DNA of 64,000 nucleotides from Bacillus sp. RO3 (GTDB lineage Bacteria > Bacillota > Bacilli > Bacillales > Bacillaceae_B): positions 126,501-190,500 of the forward strand of contig NZ_JAAXCV010000026.1 in NCBI RefSeq assembly GCF_012911895.1, given 5' to 3'. Position numbers and translations under genes: made by a program. This document shows, piece after piece, positions 33,721 through 41,530 of the stretch. The notes under the pieces are model-generated. The model had not been told where the DNA came from. It saw nothing but the letters and a program-made list of their open reading frames with translations, and made no database searches. Position 1 is the first letter of the stretch. Each line of letters starts with the position of its first letter.

Positions 33721-34707
33721 TCACTCTATTAAATACTTATATTCACCTCCTTGAACTACTTCTTTTGCTTCCATCTCCGTCCATTCTCCAATTGAAACAC
33801 CTGGATTCGCATCCAAGTAACTTTGAGTGATTTGAAAACCTATTTTGTAGTTTGACCACAAAGGAATATCTTTGGCTGAGTTGCCCGTGAAAAACTCATT
33901 GTAAACACTTGAGTCGTAGGAATTTGCATTTTTTCTTAATTCCTCTAAAACGATGTCCTGACTCTTATTTGCCAAAGATTCCGCCCATGGGGCCTGATAA
34001 TCGGGGTACACGAATCCCGCAAAAGAATCCGCTTTTCCTTCGAAAATAACAGCCTCCATCAATGAGTAAAGTTCCTTACCGCTCCTTTCCATGTTCACTG
34101 CATGGTGATATTCGTGTGCCACTATATAATTTAACGTTTCCTCTTTAAACGAAGGGTCTATCTGGAGTAAAATGGCACCTTCACTCATGGTCAATCCCCA
34201 AACTCCATCCATTTTTAGTATAGTAAATGTATTTTCAGGGTTAAGAGGCATGACAAAAACCGTCTTGGTGCCCCCGGATAAGTAATTGGCAGATTTTATA
34301 AGGGATTCTTTTATCAATGTATTGATTCTATCTTGCTGCTCAAGCAGTTGGACTGTATTTTCTTCTAATGTTTGCGGGTTCTCCGTAGGTTGAAAGAATG
34401 GATAGTACATATTGCCTATATCTATATTCTTCTCAGCAGCGTACTGCTGAAAGGGAACAACCACTTTTCCCCCATATTCAACTTTTGTTTGTTGAGATGG
34501 ATCATCCTGTACAAGACCTGTGTATTCAAGAATTTCCTCATAGAGAGGGATGATCTGAAAGGTCTGTTCATCATGGGTAAATTCCAATGAAGTTTGAGAA
34601 GGGATCGAAGGAGCTTTATCACTCTTGGCACTGCTCTCGTCTTTGGAACATCCGATTACCATGGACATGATTAGAACAAGGATGGCTGGGTACGTAAGTT
34701 GTCTCAT
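33721..34707 (-). CDS. DUF2268-like zinc-protease lipoprotein
   Basis: 328 residues. Lipobox MVIGCS (Cys about 20) anchors it outside the membrane. The motif HEYHHAVN fits the HExxH zinc site of DUF2268 putative metallopeptidases, with the downstream EAVIFEGKADSFAGFV supplying a third ligand Glu. GGAGAAGTG lies before the ATG. Substrate unknown. It is monocistronic; the 270 bases behind its start contain no other gene. Confidence 0.8.
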   Translation of the reverse strand: MRQLTYPAILVLIMSMVIGCSKDESSAKSDKAPSIPSQTSLEFTHDEQTFQIIPLYEEILEYTGLVQDDPSQQTKVEYGGKVVVPFQQYAAEKNIDIGNMYYPFFQPTENPQTLEENTVQLLEQQDRINTLIKESLIKSANYLSGGTKTVFVMPLNPENTFTILKMDGVWGLTMSEGAILLQIDPSFKEETLNYIVAHEYHHAVNMERSGKELYSLMEAVIFEGKADSFAGFVYPDYQAPWAESLANKSQDIVLEELRKNANSYDSSVYNEFFTGNSAKDIPLWSNYKIGFQITQSYLDANPGVSIGEWTEMEAKEVVQGGEYKYLIE

Positions 34708-36042: not shown

Positions 36043-36070
36043 ATAAAGAGAACAGCAACTTGCTGTTCTC
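36043..36070 (-). terminator. Probable terminator of the sigma/anti-sigma fusion gene
   Basis: GAGAACAGCA and TGCTGTTCTC arms, then TTTATTG on the minus strand, 130 bases after the stop. Confidence 0.5.
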
Positions 36071-36199
36071 CCATCTTACTTAAGACCTTTTCAGTTATAT
36101 CCTATTTGAGTGTGATAATTGTGCCTTTACCAGCGAAATTTTGATTATATCAGTGATCCTACCTGAATGATATCGACTAGTCACCTAATCTAGTCATCT

Positions 36200-38260
36200 T
36201 CACTGTTCATCCAATGAAACTCTTATCACATCATCCACATAAGTTGTAGTGCTGTAACCTAGAATGTCAAGTTGGGTAGGAATGTAATCTTCCGTGGAAC
36301 CATCACGATAAAAGTCTATCGTCTGGACCGTTTCAAAGTAACGGGGAAGGTCCATTTCACCGTGTACATATTCATTCACGTCATACACTTTCCCATCCTC
36401 ATCCATCAACACACCTTCCCCGCTGCTTACCCCGATTGAAATCATATCATCGTCTTCTGACATGCCTTTGAAATGATAATTTACACTCTCATAGGCCCTG
36501 TCCTTTGACATACCATGGGTCAGAACCACCTTTGCCGGGTTCCCGACACTGATCTTATCAATCGTAATCGGATTGCCAAGGTAATCAGTCGTTTGGGGCA
36601 GATCCTTGCCGGCATCGAGGATGATGGTTTTTGGTTCATCCACGGATAAACGAAGCGAGGCGAAGCGGATGTCCACTTCCTTTGGATCTTGGAAATAAAG
36701 AGTGTCGAAGGCTGCGGTAAAGGCAGTCCACCCTTCTTGATCCCAGGCCTCCACATACATATGGCCCCCGAACGGGTTTGAATCTGACTTCTTTTCACCT
36801 GCTTTAATAGAATCAAAGTTGATCATTTCAATCCTTTGTTTATCTGATTCACTCTGAAAGCTGTAGTGGAGGATTGTCGCAGTCGGGGCGATGGTCAGCT
36901 TATCCAATCTTACCGGGATCCCGGCGACTTCGACTTCCCGATTCATTTCATGAAGACGGGAAGATTGCTTTTCGAATGGGATCTTAAAGCTCCAGTCTCC
37001 CTCGGCAAACTTCATTTCCCCTTCTGTCACCCATTTACCCTGGGAGTCTAGGGTTAATTGCATGACCCTGGCAATATTCAGGTGAATCTCCCCCTTATCC
37101 TTCACTACGGGTGACAGGCTGATGGTTCCCACGTACACATTTGCCTGATCATTTCCGTAGTCACTTTGATCGACGGGTGGAGAATAATACCCGTAACCAG
37201 CTCCCATAGTCATGACGTCACGTTCATTTTCGATAAAGATGCCTTCGTACGGATTAATCATATATCGATTGTCATGGTTCATATCCTCGATTTCATAAAA
37301 CACCAGGGTCTGTACGTCATCGGCCACGACACTTTTGATCGTGATCTTGACCCCGTCACTTTCGGCCTCAAGGTTCAGCCGCTCTCCCAGGTTATGCTGG
37401 AGCATTGTACGAAGCCGTTCATCCTCCTCGGTATAAGAATAATAGAGACTTGCGAATCCCCCCGTGACAAATCCCATGCTTATAAGGAGGGCGAATACAC
37501 CTGCGATAGACATCAGGATTGAATTCCGCTTCTTTCTCCGTTTTTTCCTGCTCGCTTCTCTTTCATCCACCCTGCTCCTGAGCTTTTCCATAAATCGGTC
37601 AGAAGGGGAAATCTCCCTGCGCAACCGGTCTAGGGTCAGGGTCACCTCCTGGAATGAGGCAAGGTCTTCCTGGCAGTACTGGCAATGATAAATATGTATT
37701 TCAAATTCGACTTTCTCCGGTCGCTCCATGGTTCTTCCTAAGTAATCCAAATAATAGGGCTGATAGTCGGTACACCCCTGGAATCGTCTTCCTTGATTCA
37801 TCTTTTCACGAATGACCCTGATCCCTGCAAACACCCTTGAAGTAACCGTTTCGACGGGAATGCGGAGAATTGTGGCAGCCTCTTCCCGGGAATACCCCTT
37901 CACATACGTTAACGCGACTGCGTCTCTCTCTGGACTTTCCAGTTGACGGATAGTCCCGAATTGATCATCCCCACCAGAAGACGGTGAACTCTTTTCATCG
38001 ACAAGCTCCTGACACTGATGTAAAAAAACAGAAGCGGCTTTCCGTTCAAACGAAAGTTCTTTTTTCCTTCTGTGCATCTCTTCCTCTAATCGGATGATGG
38101 AACGGTAAAATGCCTCCTCCAGCTCCTCCTCGCTGTCCAGGAAAACACGGCCGAGTGCGTACAGTGAGCGTGCCTCCTTTTCAAACCAGGCGATGATCAA
38201 GTCCAGTTCCCGTCTCCCGTACTTACTGACCAGCACGGGACCGGTTTCCAATTTCGCCAT
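36200..38260 (-). CDS. Fusion of an ECF-like sigma factor with a membrane anti-sigma (DUF4179-like) protein
   Basis: 686 residues from ATG 38260, six bases after GGGGGG. About 18-90 resemble sigma region 2 (ARSLYALGRVFLDSEEELEE, then FERKAASVFLHQCQELVDEK). About 105-155 are a clear region 4 HTH (LESPERDAVALTYVKGYSRE, AATILRIPVETVTSRVFAGI). A zinc-finger anti-sigma motif follows at 189-196 (HIYHCQYC), then a basic juxtamembrane stretch and one membrane span (about 247-270). The outer 415 residues look like the DUF4179/DUF5643 domains of Bacillus anti-sigma proteins. Normally these two parts are separate genes of one operon. The frame is unbroken and the ribosome site lies only at the front. 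Confidence 0.82.
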   Translation of the reverse strand: MAKLETGPVLVSKYGRRELDLIIAWFEKEARSLYALGRVFLDSEEELEEAFYRSIIRLEEEMHRRKKELSFERKAASVFLHQCQELVDEKSSPSSGGDDQFGTIRQLESPERDAVALTYVKGYSREEAATILRIPVETVTSRVFAGIRVIREKMNQGRRFQGCTDYQPYYLDYLGRTMERPEKVEFEIHIYHCQYCQEDLASFQEVTLTLDRLRREISPSDRFMEKLRSRVDEREASRKKRRKKRNSILMSIAGVFALLISMGFVTGGFASLYYSYTEEDERLRTMLQHNLGERLNLEAESDGVKITIKSVVADDVQTLVFYEIEDMNHDNRYMINPYEGIFIENERDVMTMGAGYGYYSPPVDQSDYGNDQANVYVGTISLSPVVKDKGEIHLNIARVMQLTLDSQGKWVTEGEMKFAEGDWSFKIPFEKQSSRLHEMNREVEVAGIPVRLDKLTIAPTATILHYSFQSESDKQRIEMINFDSIKAGEKKSDSNPFGGHMYVEAWDQEGWTAFTAAFDTLYFQDPKEVDIRFASLRLSVDEPKTIILDAGKDLPQTTDYLGNPITIDKISVGNPAKVVLTHGMSKDRAYESVNYHFKGMSEDDDMISIGVSSGEGVLMDEDGKVYDVNEYVHGEMDLPRYFETVQTIDFYRDGSTEDYIPTQLDILGYSTTTYVDDVIRVSLDEQ

Positions 38261-38403
38261 AGTCATCCCCCCTTTTTCCAAATCTCTCAATCTCATCCTA
38301 TTAATTATTTCAAAATTCCCAATCATTCACAATGATTTTATGCAGCTCACCTCCGTTAACCTCCTATTCCTCTCTTGAAAATCTAAACTTACCAATTGGG
38401 GAA

Positions 38404-38432
38404 TTGACGAATTTCACTTCTCTATCTATAAT
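38404..38432 (+). promoter_or_regulatory. Sigma-A promoter of the RsbR-like gene
   Basis: TTGACG (38404-38409), 17-bp spacer, TATAAT (38427-38432), 46 bases before the start codon. Confidence 0.75.
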
Positions 38433-38478
38433 TTCATTACCGAAGTGTCAATTATTAGGATATGAAAGAGGCGTGGAA

Positions 38479-39327
38479 ATGAAAACAAAAGACAAGCTGA
38501 TGGATTACTTTCGTATACAGTCAGAGCAAGTGGTCAATGAATGGCTGGAGATGCGGGTGGACGATCAATTTTCCATTTTTCATGCACATGCGTCAAAGGA
38601 GATTGAAGATAAACTGAGGCGGGAATGCAGAAGTTTTATTCAGTTTATAACAGAAGCATTAGTGAACAAAGATTTCAAGCTTTCCGAGGAACTTATGAAT
38701 TGGTCGAACACCATCGCCAGAGAGCGTGTCAATGACGGGACAAGCATTGATAAGGTGCTGGATCAGTTTCAGAGATTCAGAGCCCTTTATTTTCGTTTTA
38801 TGAAAAAATGGTTCCTGGAGAATACAGACATGCTAGAGGAAGAGCGGTATGACCTGATTGAAAACTATCAGGTGACCTTTGATGAAGTCATCAAAACCTT
38901 TGTCCTTTCATACAAAAAGCACTATGAAAATAGGTTGAAAGATCAGATGGGTCTCATCAATGAATTAAGCTCCCCTGTTATCCCTCTTTCCGAAACGATC
39001 GCCATCCTCCCCCTGGTCGGGGATATCGATACATCCAGGGCAAAATATATCATGGAGTCTACGCTGCAGAAGTGTGTGGAAAAAGAAATTCAGCATCTGG
39101 TGGTGGATCTCTCAGCCGTTCCGGTCATAGACACCATGGTGGCACAGAAAATATTTGAACTGATGAATACGTTGACATTGGTGGGGGTCCAGCCTATGAT
39201 TACAGGAATCCGTCCTTCCATTGCACAGACCGCCGTTCAATTGGGTATCCCACTCGGCTCATTGACTATTCATTCTTCCCTGGTCTCTGCCCTGGATCAT
39301 CTGGGGTACAGCCTCAATCCCTGCTGA
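38479..39327 (+). CDS. RsbR-type STAS-domain stressosome protein, paralog 1
   Basis: 282 residues from ATG 38479 after GAGGCGTGG. The N-terminal 150 residues form a helical, non-heme globin-like sensor as in RsbR paralogs. The STAS domain occupies 165-280 (SSPVIPLSETIAILPLVGDID, DLSAVPVIDTMVAQKIFEL). The Thr in IDTMVA corresponds to a site phosphorylated by RsbT in RsbRA. Such proteins build the stressosome controlling sigma-B. Divergent from the sigma/anti-sigma fusion and ends in a bidirectional terminator. Confidence 0.88.
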   Translation: MKTKDKLMDYFRIQSEQVVNEWLEMRVDDQFSIFHAHASKEIEDKLRRECRSFIQFITEALVNKDFKLSEELMNWSNTIARERVNDGTSIDKVLDQFQRFRALYFRFMKKWFLENTDMLEEERYDLIENYQVTFDEVIKTFVLSYKKHYENRLKDQMGLINELSSPVIPLSETIAILPLVGDIDTSRAKYIMESTLQKCVEKEIQHLVVDLSAVPVIDTMVAQKIFELMNTLTLVGVQPMITGIRPSIAQTAVQLGIPLGSLTIHSSLVSALDHLGYSLNPC

Positions 39328-39375: not shown

Positions 39376-39708
39376 TCATATTCGATCGATTTCACTCAAT
39401 TGTTCCATCATATCCAGCTCAATCATCTCTTTTGCCTTTGAGAAGGTAAGCACTTCATTGGAAACCCAATGATTATATAATTTTGACAGGGCGTTTCGGT
39501 GATACACCGTACCTTTGACCTCAGTGAAGAAATAGATGATCAACAGATTGACTACATCTGCAGGAAGAGACTTTTTCCGTTCAATCCCCTTTAGGGCGAG
39601 GATGTCCAAGCCTCTTAACGGGCCTCCCACCACGGTTTCTGCCATGTGAAAATGGTCAGCAGTCCGGCAAAGGATCAACAGTTCAGGATTAATATCTTCA
39701 AGTTTCAA
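39376..39708 (-). CDS. Small protein resembling a DnaD/DnaB_2 C-terminal domain
   Basis: 110 residues. TTG at 39708 follows AAAAGGGGAATTCAC at good spacing. LPADVVNLLIIYFFTEVKG and ALSKLYNHWVSNEVLTFSKAKEMIE recall the helical C-terminal domain of Firmicutes replication initiators DnaD and DnaB (LLI-Y ... HW ... A-E). No N-terminal winged helix is present. The resemblance is by eye only, and a replication role is unproven. Confidence 0.5.
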   Translation of the reverse strand: MKLEDINPELLILCRTADHFHMAETVVGGPLRGLDILALKGIERKKSLPADVVNLLIIYFFTEVKGTVYHRNALSKLYNHWVSNEVLTFSKAKEMIELDMMEQLSEIDRI

Positions 39709-39816: not shown

Positions 39817-40380
39817 CTAATTCTTACTTAACCAGAATTCCATGACTTTCTCATTCTCTGAAGGATAGAGAAGGTCCTTCACTTGCTTCTCCATGAGATA
39901 ACACTCTGACAGCCATAGGGGAAGAGGTAGACAATCATTTTCTTGTTTCCACAAACGTTTTCGTTCCAGTGCATCTTCCACTTTCATCTTCACCCAAGTA
40001 TCATGGATCAGATTATTCCTTTCGGCTTCACCTTCTTCCACCAATGGATGGATACAGCTGGTGAAATAGGGGATATCGTCAGTGAAGTGACTTCTATTCT
40101 TTACCCAGATCACGCTTTCTTTTGGAATGAAGCCTATCGTCCTATTTGTATTCAACGGCTGCCTGCTTTCTTCTAAAAAACAATAACACCCAGACCATTC
40201 CCTGTCGTCTTCTCCCGGCAGAAACAACTCTGTTGTATAAAGGGATTGCCCCGTATCATAGAGGTTGTAGACCACACGATTGATAAAGACTGGATCGCTC
40301 TTTTGATTCAAAGAGCCGGGCCCTGGTGGACTACACGTAAATCCATGTGAGTCAAATCGTACCATTTTGACGAATTGCAT
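39817..40380 (-). CDS. Hypothetical protein
   Basis: 187 residues from ATG 40380, six bases behind AAGGAGG. No signal peptide or membrane span. Mixed alpha/beta composition, with FVKMVRFDSHGFTCSPPGPG at the start. A Cys pair at GCYCF is visible. I do not recognise the family. It stands between the DnaD-like gene and the second RsbR paralog, with separate leader and no overlap. Confidence 0.6.
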   Translation of the reverse strand: MQFVKMVRFDSHGFTCSPPGPGSLNQKSDPVFINRVVYNLYDTGQSLYTTELFLPGEDDREWSGCYCFLEESRQPLNTNRTIGFIPKESVIWVKNRSHFTDDIPYFTSCIHPLVEEGEAERNNLIHDTWVKMKVEDALERKRLWKQENDCLPLPLWLSECYLMEKQVKDLLYPSENEKVMEFWLSKN

Positions 40381-40482
40381 AGCGCCCCTCCTTCTATCGT
40401 GAATTCCTAAGGGCATCCTTCACCAATTCACTTTATAGTTGGAGGAATTCCCTCTATAGGATACATGTAAACAAAAAATCAT

Positions 40483-40527: not shown

Positions 40528-41361
40528 CTAACGCACTTCGCTCAATGCTTTTTCAAGAGTGGACGTGACTGAAATGTTGTCAAATGAGATCCCCAATTGA
40601 ACCGCGGTTTGGGCTATTTCCGGCCGTATCCCGGAAACGGTGCTCTTCACACCGATCAGACTCAGGCTGTGGATGATCTGGAATAACTGGTGGGCCACCA
40701 TGGTATCCACCATGATAACACCTGACAGATCAATGAAAAGATGTCCCACATTTTTATCCACACATTCAGCCAGGGTATTTTCAAGGATATACTTTGCCCT
40801 TCCCGTATCGATATCCCCGATCAGGGGCAGGACACCTGTTCTCTTATCGATCAGGATGACCGGGGAACTCAACTCCCTGATCATTTCCTGCTGGGCACTC
40901 AGGCGCCTTTGGGCATACTCATAATTTCCTTCGGCGAATTTTGAAATGACAAGACTGAACGTCTGGATCATCAACTCTCGTATAGAATCAATTTCTTCCG
41001 GTGAAAACATGTTTTTATGCTCACGCCTAAATTCCTTCAACACCCCCAGGTATTGATCCTGGGTTCTGAAGAACTCTCTCAGAATAAAATGGGTAGGGGT
41101 TTGCAAATGCTCTTCATCCTTGGCGATTTCCTCGATCCATTGCTCGAAATTCAATAGCGCATCCTGACCCACTTCCTTAAAGAGGACACAAAAACGTTCG
41201 TGGAATTCATGATTTTGGCGTTTCAACGTTTGGATCACTTTCTGGTCCCTGGAGGCATAAACCCCGGTTGGATCGTTCTTGTCCAGTGACGCATACCAGT
41301 CTTCCGTCAGCTGCCATGTACGTTCGGTCATATATTCGTAAAATTGTTCAAAAACCTGCAT
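40528..41361 (-). CDS. RsbR-type STAS-domain stressosome protein, paralog 2
   Basis: 277 residues from ATG 41361 after TAGGTTGAAC. Same architecture as the protein at 38479: a helical sensor (1-155), then STAS (SSPVILIDKRTGVLPLIGDID, DLSGVIMVDTMVAHQLFQII). The Thr in VDTMVA is kept. STAS domains of the two are clearly alike (SxxGIRPxIAQTAVQLG in both) while the sensor halves differ, suggesting different input signals. It lies 2 kb from paralog 1 in opposite orientation. Confidence 0.88.
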   Translation of the reverse strand: MQVFEQFYEYMTERTWQLTEDWYASLDKNDPTGVYASRDQKVIQTLKRQNHEFHERFCVLFKEVGQDALLNFEQWIEEIAKDEEHLQTPTHFILREFFRTQDQYLGVLKEFRREHKNMFSPEEIDSIRELMIQTFSLVISKFAEGNYEYAQRRLSAQQEMIRELSSPVILIDKRTGVLPLIGDIDTGRAKYILENTLAECVDKNVGHLFIDLSGVIMVDTMVAHQLFQIIHSLSLIGVKSTVSGIRPEIAQTAVQLGISFDNISVTSTLEKALSEVR

Positions 41362-41530
41362 GTTCAACCTACTTTCTTTTAAGCAAGATAATATGATGAA
41401 TCTACACTTTTTCACTGATATTCATTCAGCCTGTAACCGCACTCTTAAAATAATTGTTCATAAGCTTAATGTACTATTACCTTGGATAAAAGTAAAAGAA
41501 AAAGATGAACGAAAGATTTAGAAGAATAAA

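Follow-up and report, generated by a model that had tools for sequence, protein, structure and literature searches.

Several proteins in which an ECF sigma factor and an anti-sigma factor are joined in one chain have been described, namely ECF48, ECF52, ECF53 and IutY (PMC8999054; PMC5826349). According to PMC5826349, the ECF52 protein SCO4117 turns on its own gene when truncated to the sigma part. In PMC8999054, ECF52 is proposed, and IutY reported, to be released through site-1 and site-2 cleavage, with Prc and RseP freeing the sigma part of IutY. The DUF4179 anti-sigma factors RsiV and BAS1627 are separate proteins; RsiV-SigV and BAS1627 (3FBQ) are said to belong to ECF30, and RsiV is described as having a signal peptidase site within its DUF4179 helices (PMC6066255). 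For RsiP, cleavage at VQS is described (PMC8844934). Fusions of sigma and anti-sigma factors have previously come from Actinobacteria and Pseudomonas, whereas our analysis indicates that one is common in Bacillaceae; the literature searched, the 2021 ECF re-classification lying outside it, yielded no fusion from Firmicutes whose sigma half is eroded.

The gene analyzed here occupies a single reading frame within a window of 64,000 nucleotides of Bacillus sp. RO3, which is the whole stretch of DNA under study (Table 1). A preliminary description had read it as a single polypeptide that unites ECF-like sigma regions with a zinc motif, one membrane span and an extracellular part resembling DUF4179/DUF5643; this was borne out for an intact chain with an ECF-type sigma fold, and both the coordinates and the anatomy were correct. 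A KKRRKKR-type basic stretch can be read in the sequence just N-terminal of the span. A longer start at 38326 was rejected, since it lies inside the promoter-like site and a good ribosome-binding site is found only before the ATG at 38260.

TABLE 1. Coordinates of the fused gene, its domains and neighboring features in the window.
Feature	Position	Strand	Basis
Fused sigma-like / zinc anti-sigma / DUF4179-DUF5643 membrane protein, 686 aa	36200..38260	-	ATG at 38258-38260; homologues, genome searches
Sigma region 2-like domain, residues 14-90	37991..38221	-	Predicted helices; superposition with region 4 on SigW, CnrH
Sigma region 4-like HTH domain, residues 102-156	37793..37957	-	Sigma70_r4_2, 28.5 bits; residue comparison
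Zinc anti-sigma domain, residues 162-210 (C163, H189, C193, C196)	37631..37777	-	Ligand invariance; NCBIfam
Single membrane span, about residues 246-272	37445..37525	-	Sequence; model helix 223-266; column make-up
DUF4179, residues 240-325 (span and juxtamembrane helices)	37286..37543	-	Pfam, 6.5e-14
Extracellular part, residues 273-686	36203..37444	-	
DUF5643, residues 437-549	36614-36952	-	Pfam, 2.5e-9
Terminator-like hairpin, 12 pairs, 3' of gene	36046..36072	-	
Ribosome-binding site AAAAAGGGGGG	38266..38277	-	Sequence
Housekeeping-type promoter-like site, TTGTGA-N17-AATAAT, TG before second hexamer	38304..38332	-	Aligned with 12 same-genus loci
STAS protein	38332-39327	+	RsbRD_N 0.0044, below cut-off
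Small ORF between STAS genes	39376-39708		DnaB_2-like, below cut-off
Small ORF between STAS genes	39817-40416		No Pfam match
STAS protein	40528-41415	-	Pfam STAS; no RsbRD_N match

The presence of sigma regions 2 and 4 was confirmed by profile for region 4 (Sigma70_r4_2, 1.2e-6, 28.5 bits against a Pfam cut-off of 25.7), while region 2 was recovered in the predicted fold but not by profile: Sigma70_r2 had no Pfam match in the 686-aa protein up to E = 1, and the protein was absent among the 27 region-2 profile matches of its genome. The predicted model of the region 2 and region 4 fold superposes on SigW and on CnrH across 141 residues, and PhyR is among its fold matches. The fused model is packed in the manner of SigW bound by RsiW, whereas a free sister sigma factor modeled alike does not, this control model being of low confidence in region 4. 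With SigmaE/RseA and AlgU/MucA the model fits over region 2 only, and it also fits SigG1 (4.5 Å over 147 residues), which is not among the listed anti-sigma complexes. The zinc ligands C...H-x3-C-x2-C were invariant in all 78 aligned members. An NCBIfam anti-sigma factor model matched the zinc domain at 1.5e-7, under the cut-off of that model, and zf-HC2 had no Pfam match in the 686-aa protein and matched one of 70 members at 1e-3. DUF4179 and DUF5643 both exceeded their Pfam cut-offs, and the modeled ectodomain has a fold that matches 3FBQ; a receiver domain had no Pfam match in the protein. Residues 273-330 were the most conserved among ten segments compared, and the zinc domain together with the membrane-proximal ectodomain forms the most constrained part of the fused protein.

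The homologue search, at E ≤ 1e-3, yielded 262 sequences, of which 120 were listed, query included. These 120 were 676-715 aa long with 96-100% coverage, all contained DUF4179, and Rossellomorea, Neobacillus, Cytobacillus and Mesobacillus were among their named sources. Within the family of the host, 34 of 36 genomes matched at 1e-30, its own genome counted. In the order sample, a match at 1e-20 was present in 51/299 genomes (18/116 genera) and a frame of at least 600 aa in 47/299 genomes (16/116 genera, rows counted manually), the matches without such a frame being split, cut or fragmentary; in the class-wide sample, five of 299 genomes matched, one of them split. The fusion is real and not a sequencing artefact. 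That two genes were joined through an assembly error or chance read-through has a negligible probability, as the other 119 listed homologues, from several genera, match over the full length and a same-species genome carries the fusion at 97% identity; a frameshift or assembly error is ruled out by these homologues and by the matches in family genomes. The frameshift or stop in the linker, which the preliminary description had named as speaking against a fusion, was not found. In some genomes, two to three fused copies are closely spaced (L101:2129-13262 in G365, L107:2831-6946 in G158, L100:3088-11261 in G219, and L123 in G106), and this clustering suggests local duplication of the family.

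A split arrangement, with the anti-sigma factor encoded by a gene of its own after the sigma gene, was found at five loci (L044, L045, L046, L047 and L114). As measured on the longest ORFs, the sigma factors comprise 168-199 aa and the anti-sigma factors 526-534 aa, and the paired ORFs overlap by 20 and 35 bases or are separated by gaps of 2 to 9. These overlapping or adjacent pairs agree with the earlier statement that the parts are normally two genes. The three split sigma factors scanned matched Sigma70_r2 (1.1e-7 to 1.9e-10) and region 4 (6e-13 to 1.2e-14), and the split relative L045 matched zf-HC2 at 8.7e-7. The genome of the window itself has three conventional sigma/DUF4179 pairs besides the fusion. 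In a tree of the anti-sigma part, built by a quick method without the L085 fragment and L051, 77 of the 82 fused rows formed one clade (SH-aLRT 100) with the split rows outside, and the other five, namely L050 and four from a single genus, were placed on long branches, giving three changes in all. The simplest origin would be the fusion of overlapping genes. The family provides a natural series from a split pair through a fusion to an eroded sigma factor, which allows one to ask what use remains for a sigma factor that is unable to leave its inhibitor.

Several unfused loci deserve mention. At L118:1875-5397 (G260), a sigma-like ORF of 127 aa, strongly reduced as judged by eye, is located directly 5' of two tandem anti-sigma-type genes related to the ectodomain of the fused protein; here, on visual inspection, the sigma partner seems to have eroded without fusion. 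At L052:1928-3821 (G188), an anti-sigma gene of the same type, with zf-HC2 present, has no preceding sigma gene; the ORF before it resembles, by eye, a GNAT acetyltransferase, and the same genome carries a fused copy, L117. At L122:3641-4318 (G497), 5' of a split-type anti-sigma gene, there is no plus-strand ORF of at least 90 aa at the expected sigma position, and the match found there holds two TGA.

For the residue comparison, 158 non-redundant fused sequences (46 of 204 removed as at least 90% alike) were set against 79 non-redundant free sister sigma factors (159 found and 120 listed, 41 of the 120 removed as at least 90% alike). Nine hallmarks, mostly promoter-facing, were used: F71, W74, N81, a basic residue at 88, G137, T138, and basic residues at 140, 142 and 145. 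All nine were kept in 79/79 free sisters versus 0/158 fused members, a test valid against the sister family only, as the hallmarks were picked after the alignment was seen. The fused members had a median score of 3, which is also the score of the 686-aa protein, and 25 of the 158 scored 5-7; the five conventional ECFs of its own genome had 5-9 of the nine. W74 would match Trp68 of SigL, and for E. coli SigmaE the functions of R171, R176 and N80 were taken as background. The -35-facing helix of region 4 is eroded in the 686-aa protein (E137, T140, A145); position 145 corresponds to R175 of C. glutamicum SigH, described as crucial for the -35 base in PMC11588781, the source of the -35 contacts used. 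The basic residues at 140, 142 and 145 were kept in 14 of the 158 fused members, several of the nearest relatives among them. In its own subclade, several members keep K-S-R-L-F-R in region 4 but lack the tryptophan-bearing segment of region 2.3; the 686-aa protein has this segment with K in place of the tryptophan, and most members outside the subclade retain region 2.3 and have a changed recognition helix.

Residues of the fold, on the other hand, were retained in the fused members (Y34 in 99%, F79 in 97%, Y119 in 98%, L132 in 98% and G146 in 98%), and some specific residues are newly conserved in the fused sigma part. Among 70 members scanned, Sigma70_r4 matched 63, Sigma70_r4_2 58, Sigma70_r2 28 and PF22233, which points to the PhyR sigma-like domain, six. 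A search with residues 1-165 alone, in a length window that excludes full fusions, gave 124 candidates and none at E ≤ 0.001. The residue type was kept in the fused versus free proteins in 33% versus 100% for the -35 helix, 18% versus 89% for three positions of region 2.4, and 56% versus 82% for other positions. For the anti-sigma-contact residues, taken from Table 2 of PMC7406223 and mapped through 1OR7, the values were 57% versus 84%; as these residues are kept no better than average, cis binding is not demonstrated through them.

Rate controls came from five genomes with both a conventional DUF4179 pair and the fusion; the pair was recovered in five of seven control genomes, the other two being dropped because the neighbor rule gave no sigma ORF. 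The conventional pairs were conserved at 92% in the sigma factor versus 82% in the anti-sigma factor, with the sigma value higher in 10/10 pairs; in the fused proteins of the same genomes, the values were 47% for the sigma part, 82% for the zinc domain and 60% for the ectodomain. In split relatives, the sigma factor exceeded both the zinc domain and the ectodomain in 10/10 pairs. Among 32 fused sequences of the own family, the sigma part exceeded the anti-sigma part in 9 of the 496 pairs. Outside this family the drop is smaller (sigma above in 550/1326 pairs), and in fused pairs at 60-80% ectodomain identity the sigma part was the more conserved one in 67-76%. In 40 non-independent pairs, omega was 0.13-0.52 for the sigma part and 0.10-0.24 for the anti-sigma part; it was higher in the sigma part in 35 pairs, equal in one and lower in four, including the closest pair to the 686-aa protein. 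With omega well below 1, the sigma part, judged from these substitutions, remains under selection.

Upstream of the gene, the promoter-like site ends 43 bases 5' of the start codon. A TTGTGA-like hexamer, 17 bases, and AATAAT preceded by TG recur in the window and in 12 chosen loci of the same genus, the hexamer also reading TTGTGG, TTGTGC or TTGAGA; a 16-base block, GAATTTTGAAATAATT, is invariant in these 13 loci (the window and upstream regions from L005-L022). Being longer than a -10 region requires, this block may also be an operator. Extended -10-like sites precede 31/84 fused genes (shuffles 5.5) and 29/32 in the own family, with a pattern widened after looking; its narrower version gave 14/83 (shuffles 2.3). 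An ECF-type pattern (GGAAC, GAAAC or TGAAC, 14-19 bases, then a CGT, CTC or CTA type), chosen after inspecting the split loci, occurred in 1/83 fused loci (shuffles 2.8), that is, none beyond chance, and in 3/10 conventional loci (shuffles 0.5), including two of the five split ones, which is no more than suggestive. Autoregulation via an ECF promoter was rejected, the pattern being at chance level in fused loci.

With regard to the neighboring genes, the preliminary description had named two RsbR stressosome proteins. A STAS domain is present in both, but RsbRD_N was below the cut-off and confined to 38332-39327. The second STAS protein also lies near the fusion in L055, L056 and L057, with two small ORFs between. 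At least one RsbR-like neighbor stood beside the fused gene in 3/25 loci compared; such neighbors were therefore rejected as functional partners and say little about function. A putative lipoprotein, recognized by eye and encoded two genes downstream from the fusion (33721-34707, minus strand), contains a DUF2268 zinc-protease domain (7.4e-29).

Taken together, the reading that we favor, at somewhat better than even chances, is that Bacillaceae have long retained a fusion of an ECF sigma factor with a zinc anti-sigma factor of the DUF4179 type, its sigma half having become a folded, self-capped domain that is blind to promoters. As this half lacks most promoter-touching residues, the protein probably signals by binding other proteins and not by direct switching of genes. 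Ranked second, and rather unlikely, is the reading advanced in the preliminary description, namely a functional sigma factor, tethered to the membrane until cut free, whose promoter recognition may differ; its release would proceed by site-1 and RasP-type site-2 cleavage. The same domain order in ECF52 (PMC8999054) would suit it, as would the recognition of region 4 by profile in most members, the signs that the sigma part is under purifying selection, and the described cuts of RsiP at VQS (PMC8844934) and of RsiV in its DUF4179 helices (PMC6066255). A loose [AVST]-x-[AGS] stretch, present where the chain leaves the membrane in 128/158 fused members, speaks for it too. However, the promoter-facing residues are mostly lost, the tryptophan of region 2.3 is replaced here and its segment is missing in close relatives, the sigma part, within the own family, changes faster than the ectodomain, and there is no upstream ECF-type promoter beyond chance. 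In addition, a strict A-x-A at the membrane exit occurs in 13/158 fused members only and, by eye, not in the 686-aa protein. Inspected in the same way, A-x-A stands at the outer end of the span in four of six unfused relatives (L044, L045, L047 and L094; absent in L046 and L114). These observations weaken the case for a sigma factor that is cut free and works as such, but they fall short of proof.

Third in rank, and improbable, is that the sigma half is a structural remnant which keeps the zinc domain folded or capped while the ectodomain does the work, for example as a cell-wall or ligand-binding sensor without transcription output. That the zinc domain and the ectodomain next to the membrane are the most constrained parts would be expected of such a protein; L052, where the anti-sigma part survives with no sigma gene before it in a genome that has a fused copy, and L118 with its reduced sigma-like ORF are consistent with it. 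Against it, sigma similarity at 1e-6 persists in 81 of the 84 ORFs of at least 600 aa, the low omega indicates selection on the sigma part, and specific residues have become newly conserved.

If the promoter-blind domain is the correct reading, the sigma-like domain would bind the zinc domain in cis; a signal from outside, sensed by the DUF4179/DUF5643 ectodomain, would alter this sigma/zinc clamp, with protein contact as the presumed output. Either the freed sigma-like domain would draw off another anti-sigma factor, as in PhyR, or the freed zinc domain would hold another sigma factor; because the zinc domain is strongly conserved beside a fast-changing cis partner, we lean toward the latter. 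We tentatively suggest, as a possibility short of even odds, a trans-membrane counterpart of PhyR that arose in Firmicutes, in which a former ECF sigma factor serves as a built-in cap; on signal, either the zinc domain would become free to bind a different sigma factor encoded elsewhere, or the sigma-like domain would become free to release one. Many members carry the database name "sigma-70 family RNA polymerase sigma factor," which would be misleading if the promoter-blind reading is true.

Compared with the known systems, the fused protein would resemble PhyR in that a sigma fold antagonizes an anti-sigma factor; we know of no DNA binding by the sigma-like domain of PhyR. PhyR, a protein of Alphaproteobacteria, carries a receiver domain, for which the fused protein had no Pfam match. 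IutY, to our knowledge, contains neither a zinc domain nor DUF4179. It likewise unites sigma and anti-sigma factors in one protein (PMC8999054), but is part of Gram-negative TonB-type surface signaling in Pseudomonas, with an active sigma factor. The pair RsiV-SigV and BAS1627 (3FBQ) shares the DUF4179 anti-sigma factor, and the predicted fold of the fused ectodomain matches 3FBQ; in these systems, however, the sigma gene is separate, and signal peptidase cleaves RsiV within the DUF4179 helices (PMC6066255). In layout, the fusion is like ECF52 (SCO4117 of Streptomyces), and also ECF48 and ECF53, with an ECF sigma factor, a zinc finger, a span and an extracellular part in one chain (PMC5826349; PMC8999054). 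ECF52 is said in PMC5826349 to be exclusive to Actinobacteria and to have a carbohydrate-binding domain, whereas the fusion of Bacillaceae has a DUF4179/DUF5643 ectodomain and an eroded sigma factor. Judged by its domains, the fusion appears to be a variant of the known fused sigma/anti-sigma proteins, new in its DUF4179/DUF5643 ectodomain and in the erosion of its sigma half.
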